NCBI GenBank assembly: GCA_013298125.1 | Contig: JAAFJP010000018.1 | Coordinates: 1 to 64,000, forward strand | DNA length: 64,000 bases | Origin: Cytophagales bacterium | GTDB taxonomy: Bacteria; Bacteroidota; Bacteroidia; Cytophagales; Spirosomataceae | Reading direction: 5' to 3' | Shown here: piece by piece, positions 45,553 to 61,412 of the stretch | Numbering within the stretch: the first letter of the stretch is position 1 | Layout: every line of letters starts with the position of its first letter | Translations under genes and position numbers: made by a program | Notes under the pieces: model-generated | Databases searched by the model: none | Told to the model about the DNA's origin: nothing | Seen by the model: only the letters and a program-made list of their open reading frames with translations

Positions 45553-46887
45553 TTAATTCGCAATCCCAATAATTCTCCAAAGTCCTGATGCAGACTCATA
45601 AATTAAAGTAGCTCCTCCTCTATCTGTTATTGTTACGGTTCCTCCTGTATGAGTTGCAATCCTATTTGTTGCCGTTGCACTTGCACTTTGGTTATTGATG
45701 ACTAAGGTTGTTCCAATACTGTTGATAATATACAGAAGCATTCCATCAACGCCCCCCGCAATGCCGTTGAGTGTAACTGTTCCAACACCATTAAAATATA
45801 ATGAAGACCCCCCCGTTCTATTTAAAGCATTTTGGATTCCAGTTCCACTGAAAGTAGTTTTCCTGACGACAATATCTCCTTCTACATCCAATTTTGCAGT
45901 TGGTGTAGTTGTACCGATACCTACATTTCCAGTTCCATCAATTGTCATTCTGTCAGCATTAGTAGTAGCAAACGACATCTTATCTGTTGAATGATTATAT
46001 TGTAAAGATCCTCTGACAAACGCAGTTGGGCTACCAAATAATATTCCTCCCGTAGTGGTAGCGGGTGTAAGGATACTTAGATATCCACTTGTACTGTTCT
46101 CAAATGTTGCAATAGAACCTGAAAACGCTGTTACTGCACCTGCACTACCTCTGTGAACATGAAGTTTAGAATCGGCAGTCGTTATCCCAATGCCTACATC
46201 TCCACCGCTTTCAACTGAAATTCTCTCCACATTATTAGTCTTAAAAGCCAAACCCTGTGCATCCGTAGTCCCAATAAACTGCGTAGCTGGGTTAGTTCCT
46301 GCATTACCCGTAAGCCCCCAACCCGCTGTGCCTGAGCCACTTGGAGTTTCTACAATTCTCCATCTCTGTTTGGTATCATCATAAATCAATAAAACACCTC
46401 CTGCACCAGCGATAATGACAAAATCCGCCCCCGTATGCGTTAAAATTCTGTTGGCTGCCGTTGGGTTTGAGGGCGAATCATGTCTAATCGTTAAGGCAGA
46501 TTGATTATTTCCATAACCACACAACACATAAAGTATTTGCCCTCTTGAACCACCTGCGATACCGCCAATGGTTCCGCCATTTTCAAAAATTACAATGGAA
46601 GCATCTTGCCTGTCGTAATCATTATAGCCCCCAGAAATTGTTTCTCGCTGTATTTTCTGTAATGCCATATCACCAGCTACGGTTAATTTTGCGTATGGTA
46701 AGGTAGTACCAATCCCAATATTACCAGGGAGTATAGGAGCAACAAATCCGGGAGGAGTTATATACAGCCTATCAACCCCACCCGTCTGCAAGCGGAGGCT
46801 ATTCGTTCCGCTGTCAAACTTAAACTGCCCAAAAGAAGTAACCCCACCCATCAATAAAAGGATAATTGTAAAAATTTGCTTTTTCAT
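45553..46887 (-). CDS. Secreted GIGT-repeat surface protein, cassette A
   Basis: This 444-residue protein has a signal peptide (MKKQIFTIILLLMGGVTSFGQ). 'GIGT' modules (NIGIGTTLPYAKLTVAGD, VGIGITTADSKLHVHRG, NVGIGTTTPTAKLDVEGD) resemble phage tail-fibre-like collar repeats. Two beta-structured domains are present: one (about 80-195) nearly identical to the N-terminal domain of the cassette C protein, and one (about 345-444) similar to the N-terminal domain of the cassette B protein. No sorting domain is evident. It is the final gene of cassette A, downstream of a LytTR gene, and is probably the regulated surface product. Confidence 0.85.
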   Translation of the reverse strand: MKKQIFTIILLLMGGVTSFGQFKFDSGTNSLRLQTGGVDRLYITPPGFVAPILPGNIGIGTTLPYAKLTVAGDMALQKIQRETISGGYNDYDRQDASIVIFENGGTIGGIAGGSRGQILYVLCGYGNNQSALTIRHDSPSNPTAANRILTHTGADFVIIAGAGGVLLIYDDTKQRWRIVETPSGSGTAGWGLTGNAGTNPATQFIGTTDAQGLAFKTNNVERISVESGGDVGIGITTADSKLHVHRGSAGAVTAFSGSIATFENSTSGYLSILTPATTTGGILFGSPTAFVRGSLQYNHSTDKMSFATTNADRMTIDGTGNVGIGTTTPTAKLDVEGDIVVRKTTFSGTGIQNALNRTGGSSLYFNGVGTVTLNGIAGGVDGMLLYIINSIGTTLVINNQSASATATNRIATHTGGTVTITDRGGATLIYESASGLWRIIGIAN

Positions 46888-46921
46888 ATTCTTGAAATTT
46901 ATGTTTATTGTTAAGAAAAAA

Positions 46922-47278
46922 TTACGCTACTAATTGCAACCGCCTACTCACCTCCGTCCGTCTCCGTCTGGAAATAGAAGCTTGTAAATTATTGGTCAGA
47001 TAAACGAAATCTTGGATTTTGTCTATCCTCAATAAATGTTCACAATTGATAATAAACCCACGGTGAGTACGGACAAAACCGTAGCTTTGGAGGATGGCTT
47101 CAAAAATCTTTAAAGTTCTCGGAATCAGTATCTTACGCCCATTGCGTAGATATACGAGTGAGTAGTTGACTTCTCCCTGCAACATGATGATTTCGTGGAG
47201 GGGAATCGTTTTTTTGGTTCTGGGGAAATAGATTCTGTCTCGGACTATTTCGCAAAAATGAGGCATTAGTGTGTTCAT
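46922..47278 (-). CDS. Stand-alone LytTR DNA-binding protein, cassette A
   Basis: This 118-residue protein is a LytTR domain alone: ITIPLHEIIMLQGEVNYSLVYLRNGRKILIPRTLK, FVRTHRGFIINCEHLLRI, and SRRRRTEVSRRL. No receiver domain precedes it. It lies 35 bases upstream of the GIGT gene and probably activates it. It is closely related to the proteins at 51969 and 58256. Confidence 0.9.
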   Translation of the reverse strand: MNTLMPHFCEIVRDRIYFPRTKKTIPLHEIIMLQGEVNYSLVYLRNGRKILIPRTLKIFEAILQSYGFVRTHRGFIINCEHLLRIDKIQDFVYLTNNLQASISRRRRTEVSRRLQLVA

Positions 47279-47394
47279 GGGGTCTTAGTATTTTGAGGTA
47301 AGATTAGGCTTTTGTCGATTGACCTAATTACGCATCAAAGTTCTTCTAAAAACCGATGTGCTGTACCCCCCAATTCGGGTGGTTTATAACGCAG

Positions 47395-47420
47395 AAAACC
47401 ACTCTGGGGGGAGTGGTTTT
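47395..47420. terminator. Hairpin AAAACCACTC/GAGTGGTTTT
   Basis: A 10-bp perfect stem with a 6-base loop lies between the membrane-protein gene and the LytTR gene of cassette A, with a T run on the plus strand and a weaker one on the minus strand. It may split the cassette into two transcription units. Confidence 0.65.
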
Positions 47421-47446
47421 TTTGGATAAATAATTTGGAAAAATAC

Positions 47447-48187
47447 TCAATACTCCTTCGGCAAAAACCGCAGATACTTCGCTTGCCAAACGCCCACAAT
47501 AAGCAAGGTAAACCCAACTATCTGACTGGCGTTGCGGACTAAATAGAGCTTATAAAAGCTCAATAAATCGGTTTTTTGAAGTTTTGTAAAAATAAATTCT
47601 AAGAAAATTTCTGCAATTGCTGGGAGTAAAAACCCTAAACTAATCCAGAAATAAGCATTTTTTTGTAAAGGAATACCACGGCTATCGGTTCGATATAATT
47701 TGTATAAAAGCAATCCCATACCTCCTAAAATAAACATATTTTTTACTGTTGATGATAGGGAATTATATTCTTTATAACTTTTAAAAATAACTACCTGTAC
47801 TAACTCAAATAGAATTAATGCGTATATTAGATATTGAAAAAAACGCTTTTTCTGAGGATTTTTAAATACATCTCTCAGGAATAAACCTAAAAATATGAAC
47901 TTGATAAGATAACTTATTGGGTTTACAAAACTGGTAGTTCGTGTACCTAAAAAATCGAGTATCATTAAAGCATTTTCTTTTGAGATGTATCTATGTTTAA
48001 TCACAAAAATAAATGCCATTTCAAAAAATGTTATAAATGCAATACTACCCAAGAGGAGTATTATCCACTTGATAGGGGCTATTTTTAAATACTCCTTCTG
48101 CCATAAAGCCAATCCCCAAACAATTAGGGATAAAAAGAGTAGTAGATAACCTAAATAAATATTATACTGCTCTAATATTTGTTTCAT
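47447..48187 (-). CDS. Multi-pass membrane protein, cassette A
   Basis: This 246-residue protein has about seven hydrophobic helices (near 10-30, 38-60, 85-105, 118-137, 148-162, 180-200, 218-238) and short loops. No family is recognised. The equivalent position in cassette B holds another ~217-residue multi-pass protein with a similar NPDFWF / NAYFWI motif near helix 6. It could be the sensor or an accessory channel of the signalling cassette; this is inference from position. Confidence 0.8.
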   Translation of the reverse strand: MKQILEQYNIYLGYLLLFLSLIVWGLALWQKEYLKIAPIKWIILLLGSIAFITFFEMAFIFVIKHRYISKENALMILDFLGTRTTSFVNPISYLIKFIFLGLFLRDVFKNPQKKRFFQYLIYALILFELVQVVIFKSYKEYNSLSSTVKNMFILGGMGLLLYKLYRTDSRGIPLQKNAYFWISLGFLLPAIAEIFLEFIFTKLQKTDLLSFYKLYLVRNASQIVGFTLLIVGVWQAKYLRFLPKEY

Positions 48188-48195
48188 AAATTGTT

Positions 48196-48771
48196 TTAAG
48201 GGAGTTCAATTGGGACATTACCTTCTGCACATGGAAAATACTTCATGTATGTATCTACCTGTTGCATAACTATTTTATATGTACCATCACCTAACTGCCC
48301 TAAAAAGAATTCAAGAGCATAGGCTCTATTTCCATTTCCTCTCAAATGAGGTTCATCGTCTGTATGTATTAGATAATCTTCAATAGCACTTTTTAAGATT
48401 ACGTAACGGTCGGGCAAAAAATCTGAGGTTATTAAAGACTTTTCGTCTTCTTTATAGGGAAGAAGTATAAGATAAACAGCGTATGCGGCTTTCCCAAGTC
48501 CATCTTTATTACCATCACTCAAAATATTCCCTCTCATAAAAATAACTTCTAAACCTTCTATTTCAGGCATCTTATCTACATAATGATGGTAATTTTGATC
48601 ATATCCCAATCCTAAAATATGCTCTATTTCATTTCTTGTTCTTATGAACTTAGTCCATTGGTTTCCCGTGTGATTATTTCTTTGTTTCATTAAACCTTTA
48701 TACTTCTCATTATCAATATCTGCTATACCCGTTGAACGCTTAGGTATATCTGCAATATGTATTTGTGCCAT
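48196..48771 (-). CDS. Soluble protein of unknown function, cassette A
   Basis: This 191-residue protein has no signal peptide or membrane segment. Recognisable stretches are IPKRSTGIADIDNEKY, GLEVIFMRGNIL and YALEFFLGQLGDGTYKIVMQQVD. No family is assigned. It ends 8 bases before the membrane-protein gene, so both are probably co-expressed. A smaller soluble protein holds the same position in cassette B. Confidence 0.75.
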   Translation of the reverse strand: MAQIHIADIPKRSTGIADIDNEKYKGLMKQRNNHTGNQWTKFIRTRNEIEHILGLGYDQNYHHYVDKMPEIEGLEVIFMRGNILSDGNKDGLGKAAYAVYLILLPYKEDEKSLITSDFLPDRYVILKSAIEDYLIHTDDEPHLRGNGNRAYALEFFLGQLGDGTYKIVMQQVDTYMKYFPCAEGNVPIELP

Positions 48772-48810
48772 AATTATATTTGTTTAAATTGTTAAAAATC
48801 AGTGAATTAC

Positions 48811-49446
48811 CTAAACCAACCGCTCCTCAATCGCCTTAGCAACTGCCTCTGGAGCTGAGTTTACGTGGAGTTTTTCGTAAATATTCTTGACGTGCCAATG
48901 CACCGTATGAAAACTTAATGCACAGGCATCGGCTATCATTTTGTAGCTCATGCCCTTCACCATACAGCCCAAAATCTCTCGTTCACGGTCGGTCAAATCT
49001 ATGTATTCTCTTTGCGATTGCACAAATTGACTCTTGAACATCTGCATCACCTTAGCGGCTATACTCGGACTCATACACGCCCCTCCTTGATAGACCTCCA
49101 ACACGGCTTTCAAAATATCGTCAGGGTCGGGGCTTTTCAAGACGTAACCGTTTGCTCCGCCACAAATCGCCATGAAGATTCGGTAGTCGTCATCAAAGAC
49201 GGTTTGCATCAAAATCTTCGTTTCTGGGCTTTCTGCCTTAATTTTTTTGAGTGCTTCCAATCCAGAAATCCCTGGCATTTGTATATCCATCAATACCACA
49301 TCGGGTTTGTGCTTGCGGATATTGCTGAGGGCTTGGGAGGCATCAGGATAACTACCTGCCAAAAAAACCTCCTCGGAACTCGCCAAATACAGCCCCAAAC
49401 TTTGTCTGAAACTCTTATTATCTTCAAATAGAACGACTCGTATCAT
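48811..49446 (-). CDS. NarL-type response regulator, cassette A
   Basis: This 211-residue protein starts at MIRVVLFEDN (ATG 49446; the open frame upstream to 49551 is not protein-like). The receiver domain has acidic pocket residues in FEDN and phosphoacceptor D54 in VVLMDIQMPG. The C-terminal LuxR HTH reads LTDREREILGCMVKGMSYKMIADACALSFHTVHWHVKNIYEKLHV. It follows the histidine kinase gene and is its cognate partner. Confidence 0.95.
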   Translation of the reverse strand: MIRVVLFEDNKSFRQSLGLYLASSEEVFLAGSYPDASQALSNIRKHKPDVVLMDIQMPGISGLEALKKIKAESPETKILMQTVFDDDYRIFMAICGGANGYVLKSPDPDDILKAVLEVYQGGACMSPSIAAKVMQMFKSQFVQSQREYIDLTDREREILGCMVKGMSYKMIADACALSFHTVHWHVKNIYEKLHVNSAPEAVAKAIEERLV

Positions 49447-49547
49447 GTTGCTGAGTTTAGAGTTTTGTTTAGCAAATTTAGCGTTAGAAAGAATGGTCTT
49501 TACCCCCCAATTCGGGTGGAAATTCAGACGGAGTCGCCCAGACAATA

Positions 49548-50621
49548 TCATACCTCAAAAACCACCATCTCCAACTCCGTTCCTTTCCCAATTTCAGACT
49601 TCATTTTGAATTGCATAAAGCTCTCATCGGCTCGTTTTTGGAAGTTTTTCAAGCCGTTTCCTTCATGATTTTCTTGATAATCAAAACCCTTTCCATTATC
49701 AGAAATTGCTAATTTAAAGCCCTCATTTGCCTTTGAAATCAGTACCGAAACCTTCGTAGCCTGAGCGTGTTTGGCAATGTTGTTGATGGCTTCTTTGTAC
49801 ATCATATACACATTACGGCGTTGCTCCATGCTCATTTTCAAGGACTTAGCGTATTGGTATTCATTCTTAAAATCCAAGGAAATGTTCTGAATCGTGAGTA
49901 TTTGCAAGGCAAAAGACCGCATTTTTTCAAACAATAATTCCACCGAATCATTCTCTGGATTTATCGCCCAAACGGTATCTCTAATCGTCTGAATGGTATC
50001 TTCCGAATCAGTTTTAATTTGCTCCAAAATCGGACTCAATCCGTTGGCACTACTACCCAATTTTTTCTGTACCACTCGTGTAGCAATCGAGATTGAGCTC
50101 AGCGTTGCCCCCACTTCATCGTGGAGGTCGGAAGCGATTTTTTGGCGGATGGTTTCCACCTTCAATTTTTCTCTGAAATTATAGAGCAAAAAGAAATAAA
50201 TCCCCGCCCCCAACAACAGCAAACTGTAAAAAATTACCGAAGGCAAAAACCACCATTCTTCCATCAAAGAGCGTTCGGCGGTGATGGGAAATGAGAGAAT
50301 GGAAGAAAGATGATTATTTTGTAAAGTCCTGACTTTCAAGGTATAGTCTCCACCCGCAAGATTGGTATAACGCACGATAGGGTAGGGCGTTTTACCCCAA
50401 TCTTTATCATAATTTTCTAAAAGATATTGGTATTGTGAATTGGCTTGCGGGCGAAATTGAATCACTAAATCATCGTCTAAGGCAGACAATTGTAGGGGTA
50501 CTTTGGGGTTAAATGCTTTTGTTTGTCCATTAATGCGTATAGACAGTATCGTTGGTTCAGGAGTCTGAGCCAGAGGCGAAACGGATAATCCCAAAAAGAA
50601 GACTAACAGTTTGATTTTCAA
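49548..50621 (-). CDS. HisKA_3-type sensor histidine kinase, cassette A
   Basis: This 357-residue protein has a signal peptide (1-19), a short periplasmic Y_Y_Y-like beta domain (about 25-115: YQYLLENYDKDWGKT, VRYTNLAGGDYTLKVRTLQN) and one transmembrane helix (about 124-146). The HisKA_3 dimerisation helix carries the phosphoacceptor H167 in SDLHDEVGATLSS. A HATPase_c domain follows (YKEAINNIAKHAQATKV, ISDNGKGFDY, GLKNFQKRA). The Y_Y_Y domain normally caps a beta-propeller in larger kinases; the propeller is absent here. An exact promoter lies 40 bases upstream. Confidence 0.94.
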   Translation of the reverse strand: MKIKLLVFFLGLSVSPLAQTPEPTILSIRINGQTKAFNPKVPLQLSALDDDLVIQFRPQANSQYQYLLENYDKDWGKTPYPIVRYTNLAGGDYTLKVRTLQNNHLSSILSFPITAERSLMEEWWFLPSVIFYSLLLLGAGIYFFLLYNFREKLKVETIRQKIASDLHDEVGATLSSISIATRVVQKKLGSSANGLSPILEQIKTDSEDTIQTIRDTVWAINPENDSVELLFEKMRSFALQILTIQNISLDFKNEYQYAKSLKMSMEQRRNVYMMYKEAINNIAKHAQATKVSVLISKANEGFKLAISDNGKGFDYQENHEGNGLKNFQKRADESFMQFKMKSEIGKGTELEMVVFEV

Positions 50622-50659
50622 GGGAGTACAAATGGATTAGTGATAAGTAAAAGCGTTTT

Positions 50660-50718
50660 CAAATGTAGTTTTTTATTCGATAAAAACAAAAATAACCCAC
50701 GGTTTTACGCAGGTTATT
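50660..50718 (-). promoter_or_regulatory. Terminator/promoter block between cassettes A and B
   Basis: On the minus strand a hairpin (AATAACC at 50691-50697 with GGTTATT at 50712-50718) runs into a T tract that contains TTTG (50687-50690). After 19 bases comes TACATTTG (50660-50667), an exact -7 element. It ends the GIGT gene of cassette B and starts the kinase gene of cassette A. A near-identical block is at 56927-56985. Confidence 0.75.
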
Positions 50719-50745
50719 TACTTAACGGTAAAAAACTATCTCATC

Positions 50746-51870
50746 CTACCTCACCACCGCCACATGAAAATCAGAAGTAGCTTGTGTAATAGAAGCCGCC
50801 GAAAAATTACAAATTCTTATCAGCACATTACCTGCTGAACTAACCCGAGCATAGGCTACAATTAAACCCGTAACAAAACCATTATCGGGAGAAGCACTCA
50901 CCGCAGAATCAACAGCAGAGTTAGCTACACTTATTATTTGATTTGAACAAGCATTCGAAGCTACTGTAAAAGTTGGTACAGAAACGGTTGCTTTGATAAT
51001 TTCTTTCAATCCCGTTCCGTTTGCTCCAATAAATACGCCTCCTGTTGAATTATTGTTCAAATAGATTGGTCCATTGCTTGCACCGTCTATTTCATTACCA
51101 TCAAAAAGCATACTTGACCCGCCATTGGTAACTTTGAAAGTGGCAGTTGTTCCGTTGTTATCAACTGTTCCCTCAACGTGGAGTTTGGTGTCGGGATTGG
51201 GTGTACCAATACCTGCATTTCCCCCCGCCTCAAATCTCATGCGTTCTGTGTTATTGGTTTTGACCACAAATCCTTGACTATCAGTCGTTCCAATGAAATT
51301 ATTGGTTGGATTTGTGCCTGCATTTCCTTTTGCATTCCATGTAGAGTTTTCATCGGCAAATCCAAAAATCCGCCAAGTTGAAAGAAAACTATCATAAATC
51401 ATCGAAACCCCACCACGTGCAGTAATAGTAACGGCTGCCCCTGTATGTGTGGCAATTCGATTTCCAACCGTTGCCGAGACACTTTCATTATTTATGGTTA
51501 GCGTTGATCCCGCAGAAGTATATAAAAAAATAACCATGCCATCTTCTCCTCCCGCAATACCGTTGAGTGTAACCGTACCGCTTATATAAATCCGTGATGC
51601 CCCCTGGCGGTCAAGGGCATTTTGTACTCCCGCAGTTGAGTAAGACAGTTTTTTAGTTAATGCGAAATCACCATTCAGATCCAATTTGGCATTTGGAGAT
51701 GTTGTGGCTATACCTATACTGCCTGTTGATGGATGGATGTACATTCTATCAACAGCACCCGTCCGCAACCGCATATCATTTGCTCCTGTGGCATCTAATT
51801 TAAAAGACTGCCCAAAAGTGGAAATTCCACCCATCATTAATACAATAATTGTAAAAATTTGCTTTTTCAT
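50746..51870 (-). CDS. Secreted GIGT-repeat surface protein, cassette B
   Basis: This 374-residue protein has the signal peptide MKKQIFTIIVLMMGGISTFGQ and modules SIGIATTSPNAKLDLNGD and NAGIGTPNPDTKLHVEG. Its N-terminal domain (about 75-175, QNALDRQGASRIYISG, TVTLNGIAGGEDGM) parallels the C-terminal domain of the cassette A protein. Its C-terminal ~145 residues (from TKLHVEGTVDNNG) are nearly identical to the end of the cassette C protein. It is the last gene of cassette B and ends at the shared terminator. Confidence 0.85.
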   Translation of the reverse strand: MKKQIFTIIVLMMGGISTFGQSFKLDATGANDMRLRTGAVDRMYIHPSTGSIGIATTSPNAKLDLNGDFALTKKLSYSTAGVQNALDRQGASRIYISGTVTLNGIAGGEDGMVIFLYTSAGSTLTINNESVSATVGNRIATHTGAAVTITARGGVSMIYDSFLSTWRIFGFADENSTWNAKGNAGTNPTNNFIGTTDSQGFVVKTNNTERMRFEAGGNAGIGTPNPDTKLHVEGTVDNNGTTATFKVTNGGSSMLFDGNEIDGASNGPIYLNNNSTGGVFIGANGTGLKEIIKATVSVPTFTVASNACSNQIISVANSAVDSAVSASPDNGFVTGLIVAYARVSSAGNVLIRICNFSAASITQATSDFHVAVVR

Positions 51871-51968
51871 GTTCGTTTGATTTTAAATATTTTACGTATT
51901 TGTACAAGTTTATTTTTCACTATTTTTTTGTTCAAGCTGATAGCCAAAAGCCAATTGCCGAAAGCTAT

Positions 51969-52325
51969 TTACACTTGAAAATGTAATCTTTCATTGACTT
52001 TTTCTTTCCTTCTTCTCGAAACAGTCGCCAGTAAATTATTGGTCATTCGCATCGAAAGTCCTTCATTATCAATGCTTTTTAGATGTTCGCAATTGATGAT
52101 AAAAGCACGATGCGTTCTCAGAAAATCATAGTTTTCGAGGACAGACTCAAACAATTTTAAAGTTCTGGGAATCAATACTTTACGTCCACCTAACAAGTGC
52201 AGAAGCGTATAATTGACTTCGCCTTGGAGCATGATAATATCTTGGAGAGGAATGATTTTGCGAGTACGAGTGAAGTAAATTTTTGCCCGAACAATCCGAC
52301 AAAAATTTGGCATTAGTTTTTCCAT
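51969..52325 (-). CDS. Stand-alone LytTR DNA-binding protein, cassette B
   Basis: This 118-residue LytTR domain has no receiver: KIIPLQDIIMLQGEVNYTLLHLLGGRKVLIPRTLK, FLRTHRAFIINCEHLKSI and SRRRKEKVNERL. It is closely related in length and sequence to the cassette A and C versions. It lies directly upstream of the GIGT gene and downstream of a lipoprotein gene. Confidence 0.9.
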   Translation of the reverse strand: MEKLMPNFCRIVRAKIYFTRTRKIIPLQDIIMLQGEVNYTLLHLLGGRKVLIPRTLKLFESVLENYDFLRTHRAFIINCEHLKSIDNEGLSMRMTNNLLATVSRRRKEKVNERLHFQV

Positions 52326-52366
52326 GATTTCGTTTTGTTTAGATTAAGACTTTTTGATTTTTGTAA

Positions 52367-53092
52367 TTATTCCACCGTCAAATTCCAAGTAACATCCGTT
52401 TCAAAATCGGGTGTTCCTGTCAATACTCCTGTGTATTGCAATACGTGTTTGCCCTTCGGAATAGTCAATAATAAGCTATGACTACTACTCAAGGCATGGG
52501 CTTTTTTACCCGCATTATTACATTTTGGGTCTTGGTAGTCGTCAGGAACGGACAGGTCGTAGGCTTTGGATGTTGCCAAATATTTTTTCATATCGGGAAC
52601 AATCTCCACCCCGTCCAATTTGGCGGTTACGCTTTTCACGTTCTTCATATACGCCGCCACGTCAGGTCCCAAAAATGCTTCGATGGTTTGTCCAGAGGCG
52701 GGTTTGTAGTCGGGGTCGCAAGGGTCGTTATCGAAATACCAGAACGTTACTCCGATGATTGGCACAAAGACTGGTTTAGTGCTTGGAATCGTTAAAGTTC
52801 TTGTGGATTTTCCGCCAAAATTGTAGGCTAAAATGCTTACATTGCTATTGGGTTGAAAACTGGCACCGCTTAGTTTGCCATCGGTGTCGTTGGCAGCACT
52901 TTTGTCTGGAGCGACACCTATAAGCCATTTATCGGCTATCGAGACGAGGTCTTCGTAGCCTAAACCATTCACTTTTTCGGTAAGGGCAAATACTTTGACA
53001 ACCTCCGGTGCTGTTTCATCTTTTTTGCACGAAAAAATAATGATACAGCATAAGAAAATACTCAATGTTGAGAGAGTAATTGACTTCTTCAT
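52367..53092 (-). CDS. Lipoprotein, cassette B
   Basis: This 241-residue protein has a lipoprotein signal (CIIIFSC, Cys22). The mature part contains four cysteines, in NDPCDPDYKP and DPKCNN, and a C-terminal beta region (SLLLTIPKGKHVLQYTGVLTG). No family is recognised. Only cassette B has this gene, between the membrane protein and the LytTR gene, so it may be a signal-binding accessory or unrelated cargo. Confidence 0.78.
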   Translation of the reverse strand: MKKSITLSTLSIFLCCIIIFSCKKDETAPEVVKVFALTEKVNGLGYEDLVSIADKWLIGVAPDKSAANDTDGKLSGASFQPNSNVSILAYNFGGKSTRTLTIPSTKPVFVPIIGVTFWYFDNDPCDPDYKPASGQTIEAFLGPDVAAYMKNVKSVTAKLDGVEIVPDMKKYLATSKAYDLSVPDDYQDPKCNNAGKKAHALSSSHSLLLTIPKGKHVLQYTGVLTGTPDFETDVTWNLTVE

Positions 53093-53277: not shown

Positions 53278-53931
53278 TTACCTCAACAACTTCATCGCCC
53301 TATAATACCCCCAATAAATGCCCACGTCAATCAAGTTTTCGGAAATGAATAAAACATACAAAACCATGTCACTCCCAGCGGCATAACTTACATCCGTCAA
53401 AATGGTGGTCATCAAGCCCATAAAGGCAAAACAAAACATCGTTGCTGTAAACCAAAAATCAGGATTTTGCCTCAATTTATTCAGATTACTTCTACTTTTG
53501 AACATCAGCGTAAGATTCCAAACCGTAAAAATCAAGAAGAATGAGCGGTTGATAATCAAGCCCAAGGTGCTGATTTCCTTGAATTTATCTAAGTAAAAGG
53601 AGTTGATAATATTGATACCCACAAAAATGATGATGATAAAAATCACGCCCCATCTGACGTATGGATTTCGATGCTGTTCTCTCAAAAAAAGTGCCTTCAA
53701 CGTAAAATTCATTGGACTGACGATATTAGACATAAATAAATTATTGACTAATAACATGGCAGTTATTGAAGAAACTATATCCGAAAAAGCATTGAAACAC
53801 AGGTAAATAGCCAAATAAAGATACTTCCCTTGCCACATTCGCTTGGTGGTGATAGCGAAAATAGCAAGGGATATTTCAGTAATGGTAACAAGCCAACCCG
53901 ATATTCTATAGATGATTAGTGGGATGTTCAT
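53278..53931 (-). CDS. Multi-pass membrane protein, cassette B
   Basis: This 217-residue protein has about seven hydrophobic helices (near 8-27, 36-62, 65-80, 93-112, 126-146, 160-180, 188-208). The NPDFWFTATMFCF segment parallels NAYFWISLGF of the cassette A protein. No family is assigned. It lies 10 bases downstream of a small soluble-protein gene. Confidence 0.8.
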   Translation of the reverse strand: MNIPLIIYRISGWLVTITEISLAIFAITTKRMWQGKYLYLAIYLCFNAFSDIVSSITAMLLVNNLFMSNIVSPMNFTLKALFLREQHRNPYVRWGVIFIIIIFVGINIINSFYLDKFKEISTLGLIINRSFFLIFTVWNLTLMFKSRSNLNKLRQNPDFWFTATMFCFAFMGLMTTILTDVSYAAGSDMVLYVLFISENLIDVGIYWGYYRAMKLLR

Positions 53932-53941: not shown

Positions 53942-54370
53942 TCAAGAAAAAGGTGGTGGTGTTTTTTGAGAGCCTACAGTTGTTGCTGTTGCGATAAGAG
54001 TAGGGGATTTTGGTAACTTGTGATGCCCATTGGAATCAAAAATTAAATCTTTGTCAGAAGTCTCCTCCAAACCACCTGCATTTACAGAAAAAATAGCGTT
54101 ATTGAAAATGACTCTACTGCCAGGGTTGTCTCCATCATTTATCTTTTTATAGGGAATTACCTCTACAGTTTTAGTTGAGTTGGGTTCAATTCCAATCATA
54201 AAACAAAGCCCATCTGGACCGTTGCTCATGCCCAATAAGTATTCTCCCAATGTTTTCAGTTGCAATTTTGATAAATAAATGCCTTCCATAGTGGATTCTT
54301 TTTTTTTGGAAGGAGGGTTGATTGCTCTTTTGTGAGCCAAAACTCGTTGGAGTGCTTGTGATGTTGCCAT
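53942..54370 (-). CDS. Small soluble protein of unknown function, cassette B
   Basis: This 142-residue protein has no signal peptide; a Lys-rich N-terminus (RAINPPSKKKEST) precedes a compact domain (MEGIYLSKLQLKTLGEYLLG, VEVIPYKKINDGDN, VIFNNAIFSVNAGG) and a C-terminal PPPF. No family is recognised. Its position between the response regulator and the membrane protein matches the 48196-48771 gene of cassette A, but I see no clear sequence similarity. Confidence 0.75.
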   Translation of the reverse strand: MATSQALQRVLAHKRAINPPSKKKESTMEGIYLSKLQLKTLGEYLLGMSNGPDGLCFMIGIEPNSTKTVEVIPYKKINDGDNPGSRVIFNNAIFSVNAGGLEETSDKDLIFDSNGHHKLPKSPTLIATATTVGSQKTPPPFS

Positions 54371-54400: not shown

Positions 54401-55036
54401 TTAAATCAAATGCAATTCAATCGCTTTCAAGATTGCCTCGGGGGCAGAATTTACGTGTAGTTTTTCGTAAATATGCCTCACGTGCGTACATACGGTGTTG
54501 ATACTGATGAAACATTTATCCGCTATCAGCTTGTAACTCATGCCTTTAACTAAGCAATTCAAAATTTCACGTTCACGGGTGGACAAATCAACGTAATTGG
54601 GTTGTTTTTTCACAAACTGATTTTGAAACATCGTCAAAACCTTCGTCGCAATCATCGGCGAAAGGTGTGATCCGCCCAAATGTACCTCTTCAATTGCCTG
54701 TAAATATTCTTCTGGTTTACTACTTTTCAAGATATATCCCGAAGCCCCCGCACAGATAGTCGCAAAGATTTTATCTTCTTCGTCATAGACCGTTTGCATC
54801 AAAATCTTGACGTTATTTTTCTGTTTTTTCAATAACATCATCGCCTCAATTCCTGAGATATAGGGCATTTCAATATCCATCAAAATCACGTCTGGGTTGG
54901 TTTCTTTGACAATACGGACACTCTCACGGGCATCTGGAAATGCACCCGTGAGCCAGATATTTTCAGAGCTTGCCAAAAAAAGGGACAGGCTTTCTCTGAA
55001 ATTTTTATTGTCCTCAAATAGTAAAACCCTTATCAT
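54401..55036 (-). CDS. NarL-type response regulator, cassette B
   Basis: This 211-residue protein has a receiver with FEDN and phosphoacceptor D54 in VILMDIEMPY. Its LuxR HTH reads LSTREREILNCLVKGMSYKLIADKCFISINTVCTHVRHIYEKLHV. It is the same length as the cassette A regulator and closely similar. In this cassette a DinB-like gene separates it from the kinase gene. Confidence 0.95.
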   Translation of the reverse strand: MIRVLLFEDNKNFRESLSLFLASSENIWLTGAFPDARESVRIVKETNPDVILMDIEMPYISGIEAMMLLKKQKNNVKILMQTVYDEEDKIFATICAGASGYILKSSKPEEYLQAIEEVHLGGSHLSPMIATKVLTMFQNQFVKKQPNYVDLSTREREILNCLVKGMSYKLIADKCFISINTVCTHVRHIYEKLHVNSAPEAILKAIELHLI

Positions 55037-55096: not shown

Positions 55097-55726
55097 TTAA
55101 TTAGGGAATTTTGGATGTACTTTTATTTTCTTAATTTGCTTTAAATGCCTGTCTATATGACCCCATTGATAAATATAAACCTGATACATATTTCGTGGTT
55201 CGGCGGTATTAGTAAATTCAAAATGGTCTTTCAATGGCACCTGTATTTTTTCAGCAAAATTGATATTTTCGTTTCTTAATTTGACAAACCAATTGAGATT
55301 GTCTTTACCAACAATATGCCCTTGCGGTTTTGAAATTGCGGGTGAGTCGTGGTTTTTTTCTTCCATAATGAAGGTATGATAATAGCTATCGGGATGGCTT
55401 GTGAGGTTAAGCTCGGGCGTTGGTTTATTCCGCAAACCTATACTTATTTCTCTTGCCCAAAGAAGTTCCCATATTGCCAAATGCTCTACAACTTCTCCAA
55501 TACTCCATCTTTCAGGAGATTCTTTAAAACTCCATTGTGCTGGACTTAGATTTTCAGTTTCTGTAATCAAAATATCACGAGTACGTTTTAAATTATCCAA
55601 TGTGTATTGAAGGTCTTTCTCGACATTAAGATTATTTGATGGAGAGTTCTCATTACTTTTCTTTGTTTGAGCAAACGAAAAAGAAGAGAAAAATAATAAA
55701 AAGCAGAATATAAAAATTGTTTTCAT
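55097..55726 (-). CDS. Exported DinB-superfamily protein
   Basis: This 209-residue protein has a signal peptide (1-20, ending FAQ) and a DinB-type four-helix domain: LKRTRDILITETENLSPAQWSFK, RWSIGEVVEHLAIWELLW, and YQWGHIDRHLKQIKKIK. The histidines of the usual metal site are partly visible (VEHL, GHIDRH). Relatives bind divalent metal and some are thiol-dependent transferases. It lies between the kinase and response regulator genes of cassette B only. Confidence 0.85.
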   Translation of the reverse strand: MKTIFIFCFLLFFSSFSFAQTKKSNENSPSNNLNVEKDLQYTLDNLKRTRDILITETENLSPAQWSFKESPERWSIGEVVEHLAIWELLWAREISIGLRNKPTPELNLTSHPDSYYHTFIMEEKNHDSPAISKPQGHIVGKDNLNWFVKLRNENINFAEKIQVPLKDHFEFTNTAEPRNMYQVYIYQWGHIDRHLKQIKKIKVHPKFPN

Positions 55727-55818: not shown

Positions 55819-56889
55819 TTAATGATTTTTCGTCAATAAAACCACCTCTACCTTCGTCCCAACATTCTTTTCAGAACTTAAATTTACCTTTATTTCTTCT
55901 CCCAAAGCCCTGATTTTATAATTCTTCATACCATTTCCTTCATATTCTGTTTTAGTACAAAAACCTACGCCATTGTCTTCAATACTAATTTTTATCCCAT
56001 TTTCATCTTCATTAATTCGTAAAAAAACCTTCGTGGCAGAGGCGTGTTTGACGATATTGTTGATAGATTCTTTGATGATATGGTAGAGATTTCTACGTTG
56101 TTCGATGGATAATTCAAATTGCGATTGACTCAGATTATTCTCAATCGTGAAGGCAATGTCATTGGCAGAGAAAAGCCCAGAAGCAAAACTTTTGATACGT
56201 TCCAAGAGCTTATCGAAACTATCATAAGCGGGATTCAATGCCCAAATCGTATCATTAATCAAGGTGGCTGATTCGGTAGAATTGCTTGAAATTCTTTCTA
56301 ACAAATCCTTCACATTTTCGTGGCTTCCATTCAAACGTTTTCTCATGGATTCTACCAAAAACGTAATACTACTCAAATTTGCCCCCACTTCATCGTGTAA
56401 ATCTGCCGCAATTCTTTGTCTGATTTGTTCGGTTTTCATACGTTGTCTAAAATCATACAGAAACCAAAAGTAGAGCGTTGAACCTACAAAAAGGGAAAAA
56501 AACAAACCCACAAAAAGCCAAAACCACCACTTTTCCCAGAAATTCTCCTTGATGTTGAGAGGAATTAAATATTCCTTCAAAACAACATTTTTCAATAATA
56601 TTTTCCCATGAAATTGATACCTACCACCATCAAGATTAGTATAGCGAACTTGTGAAAAATCAGTCTTTTTCCATTGATTTTCTACATTTTCGAGGCGGTA
56701 TTCGTAGGTATATTTTTCAGGAAAAAGAAAGACAATTTCGTGGTAATCAGCCGATAATTCGAGGGGAGATTTTGGGTTAAATGATACTTCCTGTCCGTCA
56801 ATGCGTATAGACAGTTTTGATGGGTCAGAGGTCTGAGCCACAAGAGAAAACGATAATCCCACAAAAAAGATTAACAGTTTGATTTTCAA
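55819..56889 (-). CDS. HisKA_3-type sensor histidine kinase, cassette B
   Basis: This 356-residue protein is built like the cassette A kinase: signal peptide (1-19), Y_Y_Y-like domain (about 25-112: YTYEYRLENVENQWKKT, VRYTNLDGGRYQFHG), transmembrane helix (about 121-143), H165 in ADLHDEVGANLSS, and HATPase_c (IKESINNIVKHASATKV, IEDNGVGFC, GMKNYKIRA). The first 40 residues of the two kinases are nearly identical, showing recent duplication. An exact promoter lies 38 bases upstream. Confidence 0.94.
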   Translation of the reverse strand: MKIKLLIFFVGLSFSLVAQTSDPSKLSIRIDGQEVSFNPKSPLELSADYHEIVFLFPEKYTYEYRLENVENQWKKTDFSQVRYTNLDGGRYQFHGKILLKNVVLKEYLIPLNIKENFWEKWWFWLFVGLFFSLFVGSTLYFWFLYDFRQRMKTEQIRQRIAADLHDEVGANLSSITFLVESMRKRLNGSHENVKDLLERISSNSTESATLINDTIWALNPAYDSFDKLLERIKSFASGLFSANDIAFTIENNLSQSQFELSIEQRRNLYHIIKESINNIVKHASATKVFLRINEDENGIKISIEDNGVGFCTKTEYEGNGMKNYKIRALGEEIKVNLSSEKNVGTKVEVVLLTKNH

Positions 56890-56926
56890 GGCAATACAAT
56901 GAGTTAGCGATAAGAATATACGTTGC

Positions 56927-56985
56927 CAAATGTAGTTTTTTATTCGATAAAAACAAAAATAACCTACGGATTTACGTAGGTTATT
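56927..56985 (-). promoter_or_regulatory. Terminator/promoter block between cassettes B and C
   Basis: A perfect 11-bp hairpin (AATAACCTACG 56958-56968 with CGTAGGTTATT 56975-56985) is followed on the minus strand by a T tract. TTTG lies at 56954-56957, then 19 bases, then TACATTTG at 56927-56934. The sequence from the hairpin to the -7 element is nearly the same as at 50660-50718. It closes the GIGT gene of cassette C and starts the kinase of cassette B. Confidence 0.8.
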
Positions 56986-57012
56986 TAGTTAATGGTAAGA
57001 TTTTACGAAACA

Positions 57013-58170
57013 CTATCTCACCACCGCCACATGGAAATCAGAAGTACTTTGTGTAATAGAAGCCGCTGTAAAATTACAAACTCTTATTCGTACAATACCT
57101 GCCGAACTAACACGAGCATAAGCAATAAATAAACCCGAAGTAATACCATTATCTGGCGAGGCACTCACGGCAGAATCAACGGCAGCATTGGCTACACTTA
57201 TATCTTGATTTGAACAGAGATTAGCACTAACCGTAAAAGTTGGAACAGAAACGGTTGCTTTAATAATTTCTTTCAACCCCGTTCCATTCACTCCAATAAA
57301 TACGCCCCCCGTTGAATTACTGTTTAAATAAATTGGTCCATTGCTTGCCCCGTCTATTTCATTGCCATCAAAAAGCATACTTGACCCTCCATTGGTAACT
57401 TTGAAAGTGGCAGTTGTACCGTTGTTTTCTACTGTTCCCTCAACGTGGAGTTTTGTATCAGGTGCAGGTGTTCCAATTCCTACGTTTCCAGCGGTCAGAA
57501 TTTTCATTCTTTCCACATTACTCGTTTTAAAAATCAACGGTTGAATATCCGTTGTGCCAATAAACTGCGAAACGGGATTCGTTCCTACATTACCCGTAAG
57601 CCCCCACGCTGCACTCGAACTACTTGGGCTTTCTACAATTCGCCACCTCTGTTTAGCATCATCATAGATTAACAAAACGCCTCCTGCACCTGATGGAATT
57701 ACAAAATCTGCCCCCGTATGGGTTAATATTCGGTTAGCTACTGTTGGATTACCAGAGGCTTCATGTCTAATGGTTAAGGAAGATTGATTATTACCATAGC
57801 CACATAACACATAAAGCATTTGCCCTTGCGAACCGCCTTGAATACCACTAATCGTACCACCATTTTCAAAAATAACAATGGAAGCATCTTGTCTGTCGTA
57901 GTCATTGTAGCCTCCTGCAACGGTTTCACGCACTATTTTACGTAGTGCTAAGTCTCCCACTACGGTTAGTTTTGCGGGAGGTGATAATGTCCCAATCCCC
58001 ACATTGCCAGGGAGTACGGGGGCAATTGCACTATTGGGGGCGATAAATATTCTGGTAGCCCCGTCAGTTCTCAAACGGATGGGGTTAGTACCGCCATCTA
58101 ATATAAATTGCCCAAAAGTGGAAACCCCACCCATCAATAAAAGGATAATTGTAATAAATTGCTTTTTCAT
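57013..58170 (-). CDS. Secreted GIGT-repeat surface protein, cassette C
   Basis: This 385-residue protein has the signal peptide MKKQFITIILLLMGGVSTFGQ and modules NVGIGTLSPPAKLTVVGD and NVGIGTPAPDTKLHVEG. Residues ~75-195 (GGYNDYDRQDASIVIFENGG...) match the N-terminal domain of the cassette A protein. The last ~145 residues match the cassette B protein almost exactly. It is therefore a chimera of the other two. It is the last gene of cassette C. Confidence 0.87.
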   Translation of the reverse strand: MKKQFITIILLLMGGVSTFGQFILDGGTNPIRLRTDGATRIFIAPNSAIAPVLPGNVGIGTLSPPAKLTVVGDLALRKIVRETVAGGYNDYDRQDASIVIFENGGTISGIQGGSQGQMLYVLCGYGNNQSSLTIRHEASGNPTVANRILTHTGADFVIPSGAGGVLLIYDDAKQRWRIVESPSSSSAAWGLTGNVGTNPVSQFIGTTDIQPLIFKTSNVERMKILTAGNVGIGTPAPDTKLHVEGTVENNGTTATFKVTNGGSSMLFDGNEIDGASNGPIYLNSNSTGGVFIGVNGTGLKEIIKATVSVPTFTVSANLCSNQDISVANAAVDSAVSASPDNGITSGLFIAYARVSSAGIVRIRVCNFTAASITQSTSDFHVAVVR

Positions 58171-58255
58171 ATTCGTTATTTTTTATGTTTAGTTTTGCTC
58201 CCGAGGGAGATAATAATAGCTGATTTTTTCTTTTAAATAGTTTATTATCAATGAC

Positions 58256-58621
58256 TTACACTATTTTCTTTTTAGTTTTTAGTAATTCCTTAATTGCCAA
58301 TCCGCTTCCTCTTCTTCGAGAAACAGCCGCTTCCAGATTGTTCTCTAAAATCAGCGTTCTTTCCTCCATCTTAAAATCATGCACACAAGCCGAGTTGATG
58401 ATAAATCCACGATGTACACGCAGGAAACCGAAGGGAGAGAGGTCGTCTTCGTAGGTATGAAGCGTATGGGCGAACAGCCGTTTTTTACCACCTTTCAGAT
58501 GAAAAATAGTATAATTTACCACACCTTCGAGCATGATGATTTTGTCAATAAATAACAAGATTTTGCGTTTGGAATCGACCAAGAGAAGGTCTCCATTACG
58601 CCGAGAGATGACATTTGACAT
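58256..58621 (-). CDS. Stand-alone LytTR DNA-binding protein, cassette C
   Basis: This 121-residue LytTR domain has no receiver: KILLFIDKIIMLEGVVNYTIFHLKGGKKRLFAHTLH, FLRVHRGFIINSACVHDF, and SRRRGSGLAIKEL. It is more diverged than the A and B versions but keeps their length and position upstream of the GIGT gene. Confidence 0.88.
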   Translation of the reverse strand: MSNVISRRNGDLLLVDSKRKILLFIDKIIMLEGVVNYTIFHLKGGKKRLFAHTLHTYEDDLSPFGFLRVHRGFIINSACVHDFKMEERTLILENNLEAAVSRRRGSGLAIKELLKTKKKIV

Positions 58622-58759
58622 GAGTTTATGAGGATAAGGTTTCTGTATTATCTATCTGGCAATCAGATTGATAACACAAAATTATCCTCTATAAAAACAT
58701 GAAAAAACTACTAATATTAGGGGGGAGTTGTAGAAGTTTGATTTGTTGAATTGTTGACC

Positions 58760-58853
58760 TTGGACTTCAACAATTCGACAATTCAAATAAAGAAGAAATC
58801 TGAATTTATTATCAATTCTTTGGCTTTGGACTTCAACAATTCGACAATTCAAA
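58760..58853. repeat. 28-bp direct repeat in the spacer of cassette C
   Basis: The 28 bases at 58760-58787 (starting ttggacttcaacaattcg) are repeated exactly at 58826-58853, 66 bases apart. Shorter related words (aacaatt, attcaaa) fill the rest. The spacer 58622-58868 between the response regulator and LytTR genes contains no gene. Confidence 0.88.
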
Positions 58854-58868
58854 CTTCAACAATTAAAT

Positions 58869-59501
58869 TCAAACCAACCGCCTCTGCACCGCCTGCATCA
58901 CCGCCTCAGTGGCAGAATTGACGTGCAGTTTTCGGTAGATATTTTTGAGATGAAAATTGACCGTCGAGAAGCTGACGTTGCATTCGGCGGCAATCATTTT
59001 GTAGCTCATACCCTTTACCAAACATTCCAACACTCGCTGTTCGGTGCTTGATAGGGCTTGGAATGTTTCTCTTTTTTGATTCTGTTCGCTAAACATCGTC
59101 ATTACCTTTCGGGCAATGGCGGGCGACATCGACGAGCCACCTTGATAAACTTCGATGATGGCATCCACATACCGTTCTGGACTCGAATCTTTCAAAATAT
59201 AACCACTCGCCCCCGCACATATAGCTGCAAATATGCGAGCATTGTCTTCAAAAACCGTCTGGATAAGCACCTGAACCTCAGCACTTTGAGCCTTTATTTT
59301 CTCCAAAGCCTCAATCCCCGAAATCCCAGGCATTTGAATATCCATCAGTACGACATCGGGTTTATCTTTTTTGATAATTTTCAGTACATCGTTGGCGTTT
59401 GGGTATGCACCTACCAAGAATAATTCTTCCGAAAGACTGATGGTCTCGGAAAGAAATTCTCGGATTTCATGATTATCTTCAAAGATGGATACTCGTATCA
59501 T
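58869..59501 (-). CDS. NarL-type response regulator, cassette C
   Basis: This 210-residue protein starts at MIRVSIFEDN (ATG 59501; the open frame upstream to 59621 is not protein-like). D54 in VVLMDIQMPG is the phosphoacceptor. The HTH is LSSTEQRVLECLVKGMSYKMIAAECNVSFSTVNFHLKNIYRKLHV. It is similar in size and sequence to the A and B regulators and lies just after the larger cassette C kinase. Confidence 0.95.
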   Translation of the reverse strand: MIRVSIFEDNHEIREFLSETISLSEELFLVGAYPNANDVLKIIKKDKPDVVLMDIQMPGISGIEALEKIKAQSAEVQVLIQTVFEDNARIFAAICAGASGYILKDSSPERYVDAIIEVYQGGSSMSPAIARKVMTMFSEQNQKRETFQALSSTEQRVLECLVKGMSYKMIAAECNVSFSTVNFHLKNIYRKLHVNSATEAVMQAVQRRLV

Positions 59502-59630
59502 TGGGGGAGTGGTTTTGGATAAACAATATGCTGTGCAAACCTGTAAGGTTTTCGAAAACCTTATAGGTTTAATTTCCATAAATTTCTCTTCAAAACTATC
59601 TTCAATTTCATTCAATTTCAACTACTAATA

Positions 59631-61412
59631 TTAATAGGTTACTTTAAACCACAACCTCACCTCCGTCCCCTCACCAATCACCGAATTTATCTCACATTTT
59701 CCCTTCAAATTCTTAGCTCTATTCTGAAAATTCAACAAGCCATTTCCATTAGATAAACCATTGGTTTCAAAGCCTTTACCATTATCTTTGATGATTAAAA
59801 AAAATGTTTTTTGTTGTAAATAAATACTCATTTTTACTAAATCTGCCTCCGAATGTTTGGCGATATTATTGATGGCTTCTTTCACAAAAAGATACAAATC
59901 TCGGCGGTAATCAATCGGTAAAATCATTGATCTGACTTCATCACAAATCTTCAAATCCAGTTCTATTTGTTTGCTTTCCAGTGTCTCAACCGTAAATTTT
60001 ATCATCCTGTCCAACCATTCTTCCGACTGGTCGTTGCGTGAGTTCATCTCCCAAACATTCTCACGTACTAAGTTCAAAATACCCCTCGACTTTTCACTTA
60101 TTTTGCTGAAAATCAATTCGTTAGACGATAATTCCTTCTGAGCTTTCCGACGATTTGATTCTGAAAACATCGTCAAACTACTCAACGAAGCTGCCAAATC
60201 GTCGTGCAGATTAGCGGCAATTTCGTTACGGATGTGTTGTTGTCGTTCTTTCTCTAATTGTTCCGAACGAAACTTGTCACCTAATGCCAAGGAGAAAAGG
60301 ACAATCTCAACCATCGACCCCGACATCAAATAATAATCCTGATTTTCGGCAGATAGCACGCCCAAGTTTTTCAGTACCACCACAATCACCATAATCATCA
60401 AAGACCCAAAGGCAAACAAGGAAAAAACTGCCATTTTGTGCTTTTGAAGCATCAGTTTGAAGGCTTCATAAAAAAACCAAAGTATCGAAACTAAGGTCAT
60501 CAATACGCCAATGATATTGAAATAGCCTTGATAAAAAAACAGCGTTATCACCACCATCAGGACATTTAGGGAAGCGACTCTCGTACCCCAAAGTCTCAGT
60601 TGGGGTTTAGTATTTTTCAAATCCCAAAAATGAATCAAGAAGTGAATCATAAAAAGAACTGACCCAAAGGTACAAACCATCAAACTACGGTCATTGATAA
60701 AAGCATTCGACCACACATACTGAAAGGCAAAGCCATACACACACGCCTGCAACAACCCAAACGACAGCACGTAGAGCATATAAAACAGATAAGATTTATC
60801 CTTGATAGTAAGCCATAGAAAGAAATTGTAGAGCGAAACCAGTAAGATAAACCCAAAATAAATCCCCCAAATCATATTCCGATTGGCGAGGTGCAGATAG
60901 AGTTTATGCTCTTCCCAAAACGTCATCGGAAACTTCAAATCTTCGCTTCCATTTGCCTTCAAAAAGATGCTGTACGAGTCATTTTGAAGCATTTTTAAAT
61001 CAAAAATCAGACTCCTATCTTGAAATTGATAACTACTAAAAGACTGATTATCCCCCGTTTGTGTGTGATAAACGATTTGATTATTTTTTACTAAAAAGAA
61101 ATCTAAATGATTAATACGGGCATTGTCAATCTCCAAAAACCAACGTTTAGTGGAGTTATTTTTAAAATGAATTTTCAACCAAATATCGTGGGAAGTATAA
61201 CCAAAATTAGGGATGGATAGAGGCGTTTTTTGGAAGTTTTTTGTGAATTTAGACGATAGAATATCCTTCCCAGAAAACTGGTGTTTGGGGTCTTCAAATA
61301 CTGAACAATTGTAGCCGACGGGTACTTCGTCAGGAGTATCAGAAAGTATGATTTCTTGGGCAAGAAGAGGTAATTTTAGCAAGAGTAAAAGCCCCAAAAA
61401 GAGTCGTTGCAT
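59631..61412 (-). CDS. 7TMR-DISM sensor histidine kinase, cassette C
   Basis: This 593-residue protein has a signal peptide (1-18, ending LLAQ) and a 7TMR-DISM extracellular domain (about 25-170: SIPNFGYTSHDIWLKIHFKNNS, RWFLEIDNARINHLDFFLV). Seven transmembrane helices follow (about 180-380), then a HisKA_3 helix with H403 in NLHDDLAASLSSL, and HATPase_c (VKEAINNIAKHSEADLV, IKDNGKGFE, GLLNFQNRA). The cytoplasmic half resembles the A and B kinases while the sensor half is different, so the input has been swapped. Confidence 0.94.
   Translation of the reverse strand: MQRLFLGLLLLLKLPLLAQEIILSDTPDEVPVGYNCSVFEDPKHQFSGKDILSSKFTKNFQKTPLSIPNFGYTSHDIWLKIHFKNNSTKRWFLEIDNARINHLDFFLVKNNQIVYHTQTGDNQSFSSYQFQDRSLIFDLKMLQNDSYSIFLKANGSEDLKFPMTFWEEHKLYLHLANRNMIWGIYFGFILLVSLYNFFLWLTIKDKSYLFYMLYVLSFGLLQACVYGFAFQYVWSNAFINDRSLMVCTFGSVLFMIHFLIHFWDLKNTKPQLRLWGTRVASLNVLMVVITLFFYQGYFNIIGVLMTLVSILWFFYEAFKLMLQKHKMAVFSLFAFGSLMIMVIVVVLKNLGVLSAENQDYYLMSGSMVEIVLFSLALGDKFRSEQLEKERQQHIRNEIAANLHDDLAASLSSLTMFSESNRRKAQKELSSNELIFSKISEKSRGILNLVRENVWEMNSRNDQSEEWLDRMIKFTVETLESKQIELDLKICDEVRSMILPIDYRRDLYLFVKEAINNIAKHSEADLVKMSIYLQQKTFFLIIKDNGKGFETNGLSNGNGLLNFQNRAKNLKGKCEINSVIGEGTEVRLWFKVTY

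Follow-up and report, generated by a model that had tools for sequence, protein, structure and literature searches.

The first 64,000 nucleotides of contig JAAFJP010000018.1 from a Cytophagales bacterium (Spirosomataceae; assembly GCA_013298125.1), hereafter the window, carry on the minus strand three tandem gene cassettes, C (61412-57013), B (56889-50746) and A (50621-45553), with open frames at these coordinates. Pfam domains and open frames revealed an order common to all three, as a first-pass annotation of the DNA had proposed: a HisKA_3 kinase, a NarL-type regulator, a stand-alone LytTR protein and a secreted protein with GIGT repeats. We examined whether the parts of a cassette are wired together, what the GIGT protein is, and how the cassettes have come to differ.

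Composition of the three cassettes

In each cassette a HisKA_3 kinase adjoins a regulator with Response_reg and GerE domains, the arrangement of a NarL-type two-component system. The three LytTR proteins consist of the LytTR domain alone (118-121 aa), without a receiver. Relative to cassette A, the regulators are 58% (B) and 54% (C) identical, the LytTR proteins 60% and 36%, the kinases 43% and 31%, and the GIGT proteins 42% and 56%. The gaps between LytTR and GIGT genes measure 34-98 bp. Translations of the GIGT genes show three repeated necks in A, two in B and two in C.

The Pfam results agree with the first-pass annotation on the 7TMR-DISM sensor of cassette C and on a DinB-like protein added in cassette B. 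The soluble proteins of A and B, which it had treated as counterparts, have no real similarity to one another. The membrane proteins, likewise described as matching and with about seven helices, are weakly alike (21% over 99 aa, E 0.004) and contain five hydrophobic segments each by a crude hydropathy count. None of the GIGT, soluble, membrane and lipoprotein-like proteins exceeded a Pfam or NCBIfam cut-off.

Table 1. Features of cassettes C, B and A in the window (MAT, mosaic adhesive trimer; D9, a repeat of the window).
Feature	Position	Strand	Basis
Kinase C: 7TMR-DISM sensor (7TMR-DISM_7TM, 7TMR-DISMED2), HisKA_3	59631..61412	-	Pfam
Regulator C: Response_reg, GerE; likely start 59501, listed frame from 59621	58869..59501	-	Pfam, alignment
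Stand-alone LytTR C	58256..58621	-	Pfam
Fibre (GIGT) C: signal peptide, neck, module X, neck, tip	57013..58170	-	MAT match E 3.4e-11; module comparisons
Kinase B: Y_Y_Y, HisKA_3	55819..56889	-	Pfam
DinB_2 protein, signal-peptide-like start, cassette B	55097..55726	-	Pfam 43.2 bits, cut-off 24.8
Regulator B: Response_reg, GerE	54401..55036	-	Pfam
Soluble protein B, no family	53942..54370	-	
Membrane protein B, no family	53278..53931	-	
Lipoprotein-like protein B, no family	52367..53092	-	
Stand-alone LytTR B	51969..52325	-	Pfam
Fibre (GIGT) B	50746..51870	-	MAT match E 9e-5; tip 84% to C
Kinase A: Y_Y_Y, HisKA_3	49548..50621	-	Pfam
Regulator A: Response_reg, GerE; likely start 49446, listed frame from 49551	48811..49446	-	Pfam, alignment
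Soluble protein A, no family	48196..48771	-	
Membrane protein A, no family	47447..48187	-	
Stand-alone LytTR A	46922..47278	-	Pfam
Fibre (GIGT) A: module X inside, related module at C-terminus	45553..46887	-	MAT match E 1.4e-9; module comparisons
Terminator-like hairpin between membrane protein A and LytTR A promoter	47395..47420	-	10-bp arms
Terminator-like hairpin after fibre B	50683..50716	-	repeat D9
Terminator-like hairpin after fibre C	56950..56983	-	repeat D9; arms
Third copy of that hairpin, before kinase C	61512..61545	-	repeat D9
Cassette A element before regulator A	49501..49519	-	
Cassette A element before LytTR A	47364..47382	-	
-7-like box TAAATTTG of regulator A	49473..49480	-	
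-7-like box GAACTTTG of LytTR A	47336..47343	-	
Cassette C element before regulator C	59620..59633	-	conserved in L156
Cassette C element before LytTR C	58706..58719	-	conserved in L156
-7-like box TAGTTTTG of regulator C	59591..59598	-	
-7-like box TAATTTTG of LytTR C	58677..58684	-	

Several smaller features lie in or beside the cassettes. A small receiver-less GerE (LuxR-type) gene is found at 45081-45317 (minus strand), beside cassette A; genes like it adjoin LytTR or the same flank genes in two other genomes (G005, G035). After fibre A, at 45379-45535, two arms of 44 nt form an inverted repeat (80% complementary) across a spacer of 69 nt; this may be a large hairpin or a small mobile element. 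The region before LytTR C holds a direct repeat (58754-58853; 34 nt, 94%, 66-base spacing). Two 40-nt copies of short AGCTATCAGC/GGCAATTGGC-like words, 85% alike, occur at 45044-45083 and 51932-51971, the latter between LytTR B and fibre B.

Paired elements at the regulator and LytTR promoters

The window has two copies of a 19-bp element, CCACCCGAATTGGGGGGTA, one lying 54 bp ahead of the likely start of regulator A and the other 85 bp before LytTR A; the rest of the 5.85-Mb genome (G000) has none at up to two mismatches. A relative from the same genus, G002, has three copies, two at the matching places and one elsewhere with two mismatches; the six other genus genomes have none, and the reversed pattern is absent from all eight. 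In cassette C, TAATATTAGTAGTT is present at both promoters, and locus L156 has it inside a longer palindrome at both places. A cassette of another genus (L086) carries a 25-bp exact repeat before its regulator and its LytTR gene, and a further regulator-LytTR pair of G000, on contig C68, also shares an element between the two promoters.

The -7 box of Bacteroidota promoters is TAnnTTTG. The distance from the element to such a box is 43 bp in all four promoters of A and G002, 47 bp in both of L086, and 42 bp in three of those of C and L156, the fourth having TTTA for TTTG at the same place; the intervening bases differ. In all, the spacing holds within its type at 10 of 10 promoters, including the one with TTTA; two promoters hold a second candidate box. 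The best dyad centre lies 34-35 bp from the box, the centre being tied in L086 and in one G002 promoter. When promoters were compared in register over 22 bp, 6 of 17 regulator/LytTR pairs (A, G002, C, L156, C68 and L086) matched with 0-6 mismatches versus 0 of 206 non-cognate pairs, a set that leaves out the A-G002 and C-L156 cross pairs.

Dyads at about -42 are in keeping with activators of the LuxR/NarL type. Since the same element stands at matched spacing before both genes, the regulator of cassettes A and C probably activates its own gene together with the LytTR-fibre transcript. A hairpin parts membrane gene A from the LytTR A promoter, and fibre A follows LytTR A after 34 bp, so these two genes look like one transcript. 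The earlier proposal of a single regulated system is therefore borne out in part, with the regulator linked to the LytTR-fibre unit in A and C. Repeat search, word test and in-register test found no repeated element in cassette B, and the three fibre promoters have no repeated element of at least 11 bp linking them to a regulator promoter. Support for the wiring is limited to A and C. With their short gaps, LytTR and fibre genes may be co-transcribed.

Other observations weigh against regulator control through the element. Eleven of the 17 pairs are without it, eight resembling non-cognate pairs and three (B, C22 and L074) having no candidate. A plain word test on 16 pairs gave no equal among shuffled sequences for A, L156 and L086, and 4 of 200 for C68; window cassette C was equalled in 9 of 200 shuffles, and the other 11 pairs in at least 13 of 200. 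The L086 dyad is weak (5/9, with the tied centre), the C68 pair has no HisKA_3 match on its contig, and its LytTR gene ends near the contig end, so that no payload is seen. For C22 (L048), GGTTATTTT can be seen by eye 32 bases before TTTG in both promoters; this pair is uncounted, as the -7 rule of the scripted test yielded no candidate in it.

The absence of the element from these 11 pairs would also suit an element bound by LytTR, or by an unlinked regulator, with kinase and regulator as mere neighbours; binding by the NarL-type regulator is itself read from sequence. The element, however, goes with the regulator. G002 has regulator A and the A element with a LytTR 75% like that of B, whose own cassette is without the element, and G007 keeps the element where the regulator is 87% but the LytTR only 59% identical. 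Moreover, LytTR binding sites are direct repeats, whereas the A and C sites are dyads. We regard binding by another protein as improbable and retain the cassette's own regulator as the candidate binder. At a further locus (L038 in G029), a near-perfect palindrome, ATAGCGAACATTCGCTAT, stands in the same register before a GAAATTTG box ahead of the LytTR gene at 14358, at the LytTR promoter and not at that of the regulator.

Fibre genes and the variable site

A profile of the three GIGT sequences matched solved structures of mosaic adhesive trimer (MAT) fibres of Bdellovibrio (PMC10769870), PDB 8ond (Bd2133; E 1.9e-10) and 8ojn (E 5.8e-7), and the single sequences matched MAT fibres as well (Table 1). 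The aligned region is the repeated neck, and the GIGT proteins are therefore probably trimeric adhesive fibres. According to that paper, MAT fibres are typically ~1,000 aa long, shorter named ones having 626-843 aa, and a conserved beta-rich N-terminal domain of ~130 aa, none solved, follows the signal peptide. Both groups have a signal-peptide-like start, necks alike in sequence, several tips on similar fibres and C-terminal exchange; the GIGT fibres differ in being shorter (374-444 aa), in each lying within a kinase-regulator-LytTR cassette and in coming from Cytophagales, which are not known to be predators like Bdellovibrio. Two points speak against the likeness: no MAT-like N-terminal domain of ~130 aa is apparent in the GIGT fibres, whose first neck begins ~35 residues past the signal peptide, and the AlphaFold model of the whole fibre is poor (pLDDT 42). 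This model is too poor for its Foldseek list to carry weight, and the list was set aside. GIGT profile matches, most of them weak, occur in 27 of 59 genomes searched, G000 included.

Module X by itself has a predicted fold of pLDDT 85.5, with phage gp10-like and tailspike domains as top Foldseek matches (best E 4.8e-3, none at or below 0.001). Related modules (36-83% identical to that of C) are found in the inner position of all three fibres, and fibre A has one at its C-terminus as well. Fibres B and C instead end in a common 100-aa tip (84%), also found in relatives (31-86%), so the GIGT fibres carry two kinds of C-terminus. Compared with solved structures, the tip gave weak enzyme and turret-protein matches (E 0.65 or worse).

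These phage-like folds, none at E 0.001 or better, together with the tail-fibre matches of the GIGT proteins in PHROGs, are what fibres of a phage-like or contractile particle would show. The signal-peptide-like starts argue against such a particle, and the best solved matches are surface fibres of Bdellovibrio; on an unsystematic scan of the neighbours (20 window proteins with Pfam, six with PHROGs), we give a particle origin very little credence next to a cell-surface adhesin. A comparison of fibre C with phages returned seven records, none covering 80%, in the neck region. A role in contact or adhesion is suggested by the MAT match and by the mosaicism of the genes.

Sliding windows disclosed this mosaicism. 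Identity between fibres A and C runs at 0.71-0.84 through module X, a stretch in which B reaches 0.47-0.62 with either. Past ~51260 (B) and ~57530 (C), the identity of B and C is 0.74-0.93 and extends over the stop codon, the terminator and the opening bases of the kinase that follows; A lacks a counterpart there, with 0.31-0.50 from the next window onward. The LytTR genes gave 0.47-0.68. Among 456 informative sites of fibre C, the best break falls at 57505, with C=A/C=B sites of 169/48 before and 31/208 beyond it, a contrast reached in 0 of 1000 permutations. Fourfold sites in the alike fibre quarters agree at 20/41 and 21/38 (A-C) and at 19/37 and 32/48 (B-C), compared with 13/43 to 14/45 in the regulators and 5/13 to 10/16 in the LytTR genes. 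From these figures, the fibre exchanges are younger than the divergence of the regulators, yet not recent.

The locus itself is variable. Its flank neighbour (62447-63508) is matched in all eight genus genomes, and the site beside it in six resolved relatives is empty, reduced, hybrid, re-armed or unrelated; G003, whose sequence ends at the site, was left out of the six. G006 has no cassette, G004 has only the start of a kinase, and G001 has unrelated genes. G005 has a kinase start and other genes, with a LytTR C-like gene and a GIGT gene farther on. In G007 (Arcicella aurantiaca-like), a kinase (67%), regulator (87%) and LytTR (59%) of the C type are combined with a different payload, a secreted protein of 515 aa; an orphan LytTR gene like that of A (70%) is also present. 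G002 has kinase A (76%) on one contig. A second contig holds the last part of regulator A (97% over 65 aa), followed by genes for a soluble and a membrane protein and then by LytTR and GIGT genes 75% like those of B; this set is a hybrid cassette. The left (far) border of the site is not conserved; the 41066-43438 protein, tried as a flank anchor, gave no clean orthologue. Beside the site in G004, G006 and G007 lies a gene that we take to be Ddl-like, which is not in the window.

The regulator and LytTR trees disagree, and the parts therefore reassort. Regulators A, B and C group loosely (85/89), while LytTR A and B fall with G002, G035 and the G007 orphan (100/100) and LytTR C with G005 and G007 (95/91); many LytTR forks are open and some forks weak. 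Together with the hybrid and re-armed cassettes, this is not a single shared history of the components. The first-pass idea of a diversifying system is thus upheld by the mosaic fibre genes and the variable locus, and the architecture recurs elsewhere in G000 and in relatives; across other genomes, the homologues are neither scattered independently nor always linked.

Stand-alone LytTR genes and cassette-by-cassette control

G000 has 56 LytTR, 21 HisKA_3 and 36 GerE matches. By open-frame length, 32 LytTR genes were classed as stand-alone (up to 151 aa) and 24 as receiver-linked. A HisKA_3 match lies within 5 kb of 10/32 stand-alone genes (expected 1.04) versus 0/24 receiver-linked ones, and a GerE match within 5 kb of 13/32 (expected 1.64) versus 0/24; with the window's contig left out, the stand-alone counts are 7/29 and 10/29. 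Pooled counts from G007, G035 and G029, split at 170 aa with short and broken rows counted in, gave 23/83 versus 3/63 (Fisher P 3e-4). The association appears in G035 (6/25 versus 0/25) and G029 (13/34 versus 1/17); G007 by itself (4/24 versus 2/21) tells against it.

Further multi-copy or same-order sets occur on contigs C22, C28 and C34 of G000. A scan of named genomes gave 80 loci, of which 29 were examined, one yielding no gene; L086, L087 and L093 have kinase, regulator and LytTR in this order on one strand, and L074, L076 and L091 have the kinase on the opposite strand. On C34 (L060), two near-identical stand-alone LytTR genes have kinase-regulator pairs on the opposite strand, the second LytTR being followed by a 1067-aa secreted protein. 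Two other loci of G000 (L058 on C6, L061 on C30) keep this order with a regulator from a different class: a receiver-LytTR regulator comes first, a stand-alone LytTR second and a large secreted protein third. Contigs C34 and C45 hold giant, secreted-type open frames (11690 and 12797 aa) that match the repeat part of the 41066-43438 protein.

A same-strand secreted protein of at least 300 aa, by a crude rule rather than a trained predictor, is the next gene within 400 bp for 15/31 stand-alone LytTR genes of G000, versus 36/323 other genes of the same stretches (P 1.8e-6) and 4/23 receiver-linked LytTR genes (P 0.02); one gene of each LytTR class was dropped, the stand-alone one being at a contig end. 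LytTR also stands in front of a GIGT gene or gene run in six of nine loci outside the window's contig (L031-L036 and L038-L040, GIGT match E 1e-25 or better), L035, L038 and L039 being without it. In G035, of another genus, two LytTR-GIGT pairs lie beside kinases and regulators of another clade, so the pairing persists with other regulators. These placements would be expected of a relay in which LytTR, once induced by the regulator, would be required to activate the fibre gene and perhaps distant genes. The first-pass annotation had likewise proposed that LytTR drives the surface-protein gene, for which we found nothing; the LytTR A-fibre A gap is only 34 bp, and the search for a repeated element ahead of the three fibre genes gave none. 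A relay appears unlikely, though it deserves more weight than either alternative considered above.

We favour, with moderate confidence, a reading in which every cassette is a unit complete in itself, with its own two-component system in control of a phage-tail-like adhesive fibre. The membrane kinase would sense a cue from outside or from the envelope and phosphorylate its NarL-type regulator, which would bind a cassette-private operator at its own and the LytTR-fibre promoter, ~35 bp upstream of the -7 box. One signal could thus yield more regulator and switch on LytTR and fibre, by activation rather than repression and presumably from one transcript. The secreted fibre would be short, trimeric and MAT-like, with GIGT necks and with inner and tip modules that can be exchanged, and it would be displayed on the surface for adhesion. 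Cassettes would be able to swap fibre parts through homology in the fibre leader and signal peptide, the necks, the tip, the terminator and the start of the next kinase, and whole cassettes would be gained, lost and recombined at this site. LytTR might most simply tune the unit of its own cassette.

Comparison with known systems places the cassettes among regulated, recombining adhesin loci. Like NarL/FixJ two-component systems, they have HisKA_3 and GerE domains over the cut-offs and dyad-type elements, but the private element is found at only two promoters, one being that of the LytTR-fibre unit. The LytTR domain is common to response regulators of the AgrA/LytR type; the cassette protein differs in lacking a receiver, and its gene sits between those of a NarL-type system and that of a secreted protein. 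Recombining surface-protein and adhesin loci in general share the tandem paralogues with mosaic modules and the site that varies between relatives, whereas here duplication and exchange extend to the control genes. Neither an invertase nor a silent cassette was noticed, in work that included no search aimed at these. A literature search, with subscription journals mostly outside its reach, found no description of the kinase-regulator-LytTR-fibre combination, and hence we take this combination as new within the known kind.

The cassettes look like a means of continual, controlled change in what the cell adheres to. More tentatively, and with rather less than even confidence, we suggest that a stand-alone LytTR with a large secreted protein forms a genome-wide addressing scheme in these Cytophagales, a share of it gated by its own two-component system through a private operator, which would make a recombining, individually switchable repertoire for contact recognition. 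Such a scheme would be alike in logic to MAT-based recognition, but controlled cassette by cassette. If right, this picture of the cassettes would assign a function to many receiver-less LytTR proteins (32 of the 56 LytTR matches in G000) and would place MAT-like fibres under cassette-by-cassette control outside Bdellovibrio. It would also provide directly testable regulator-operator pairs, the cassette A element being at just two places in the genome at up to two mismatches, and one could ask which signal calls which fibre tip, and watch tip exchange.

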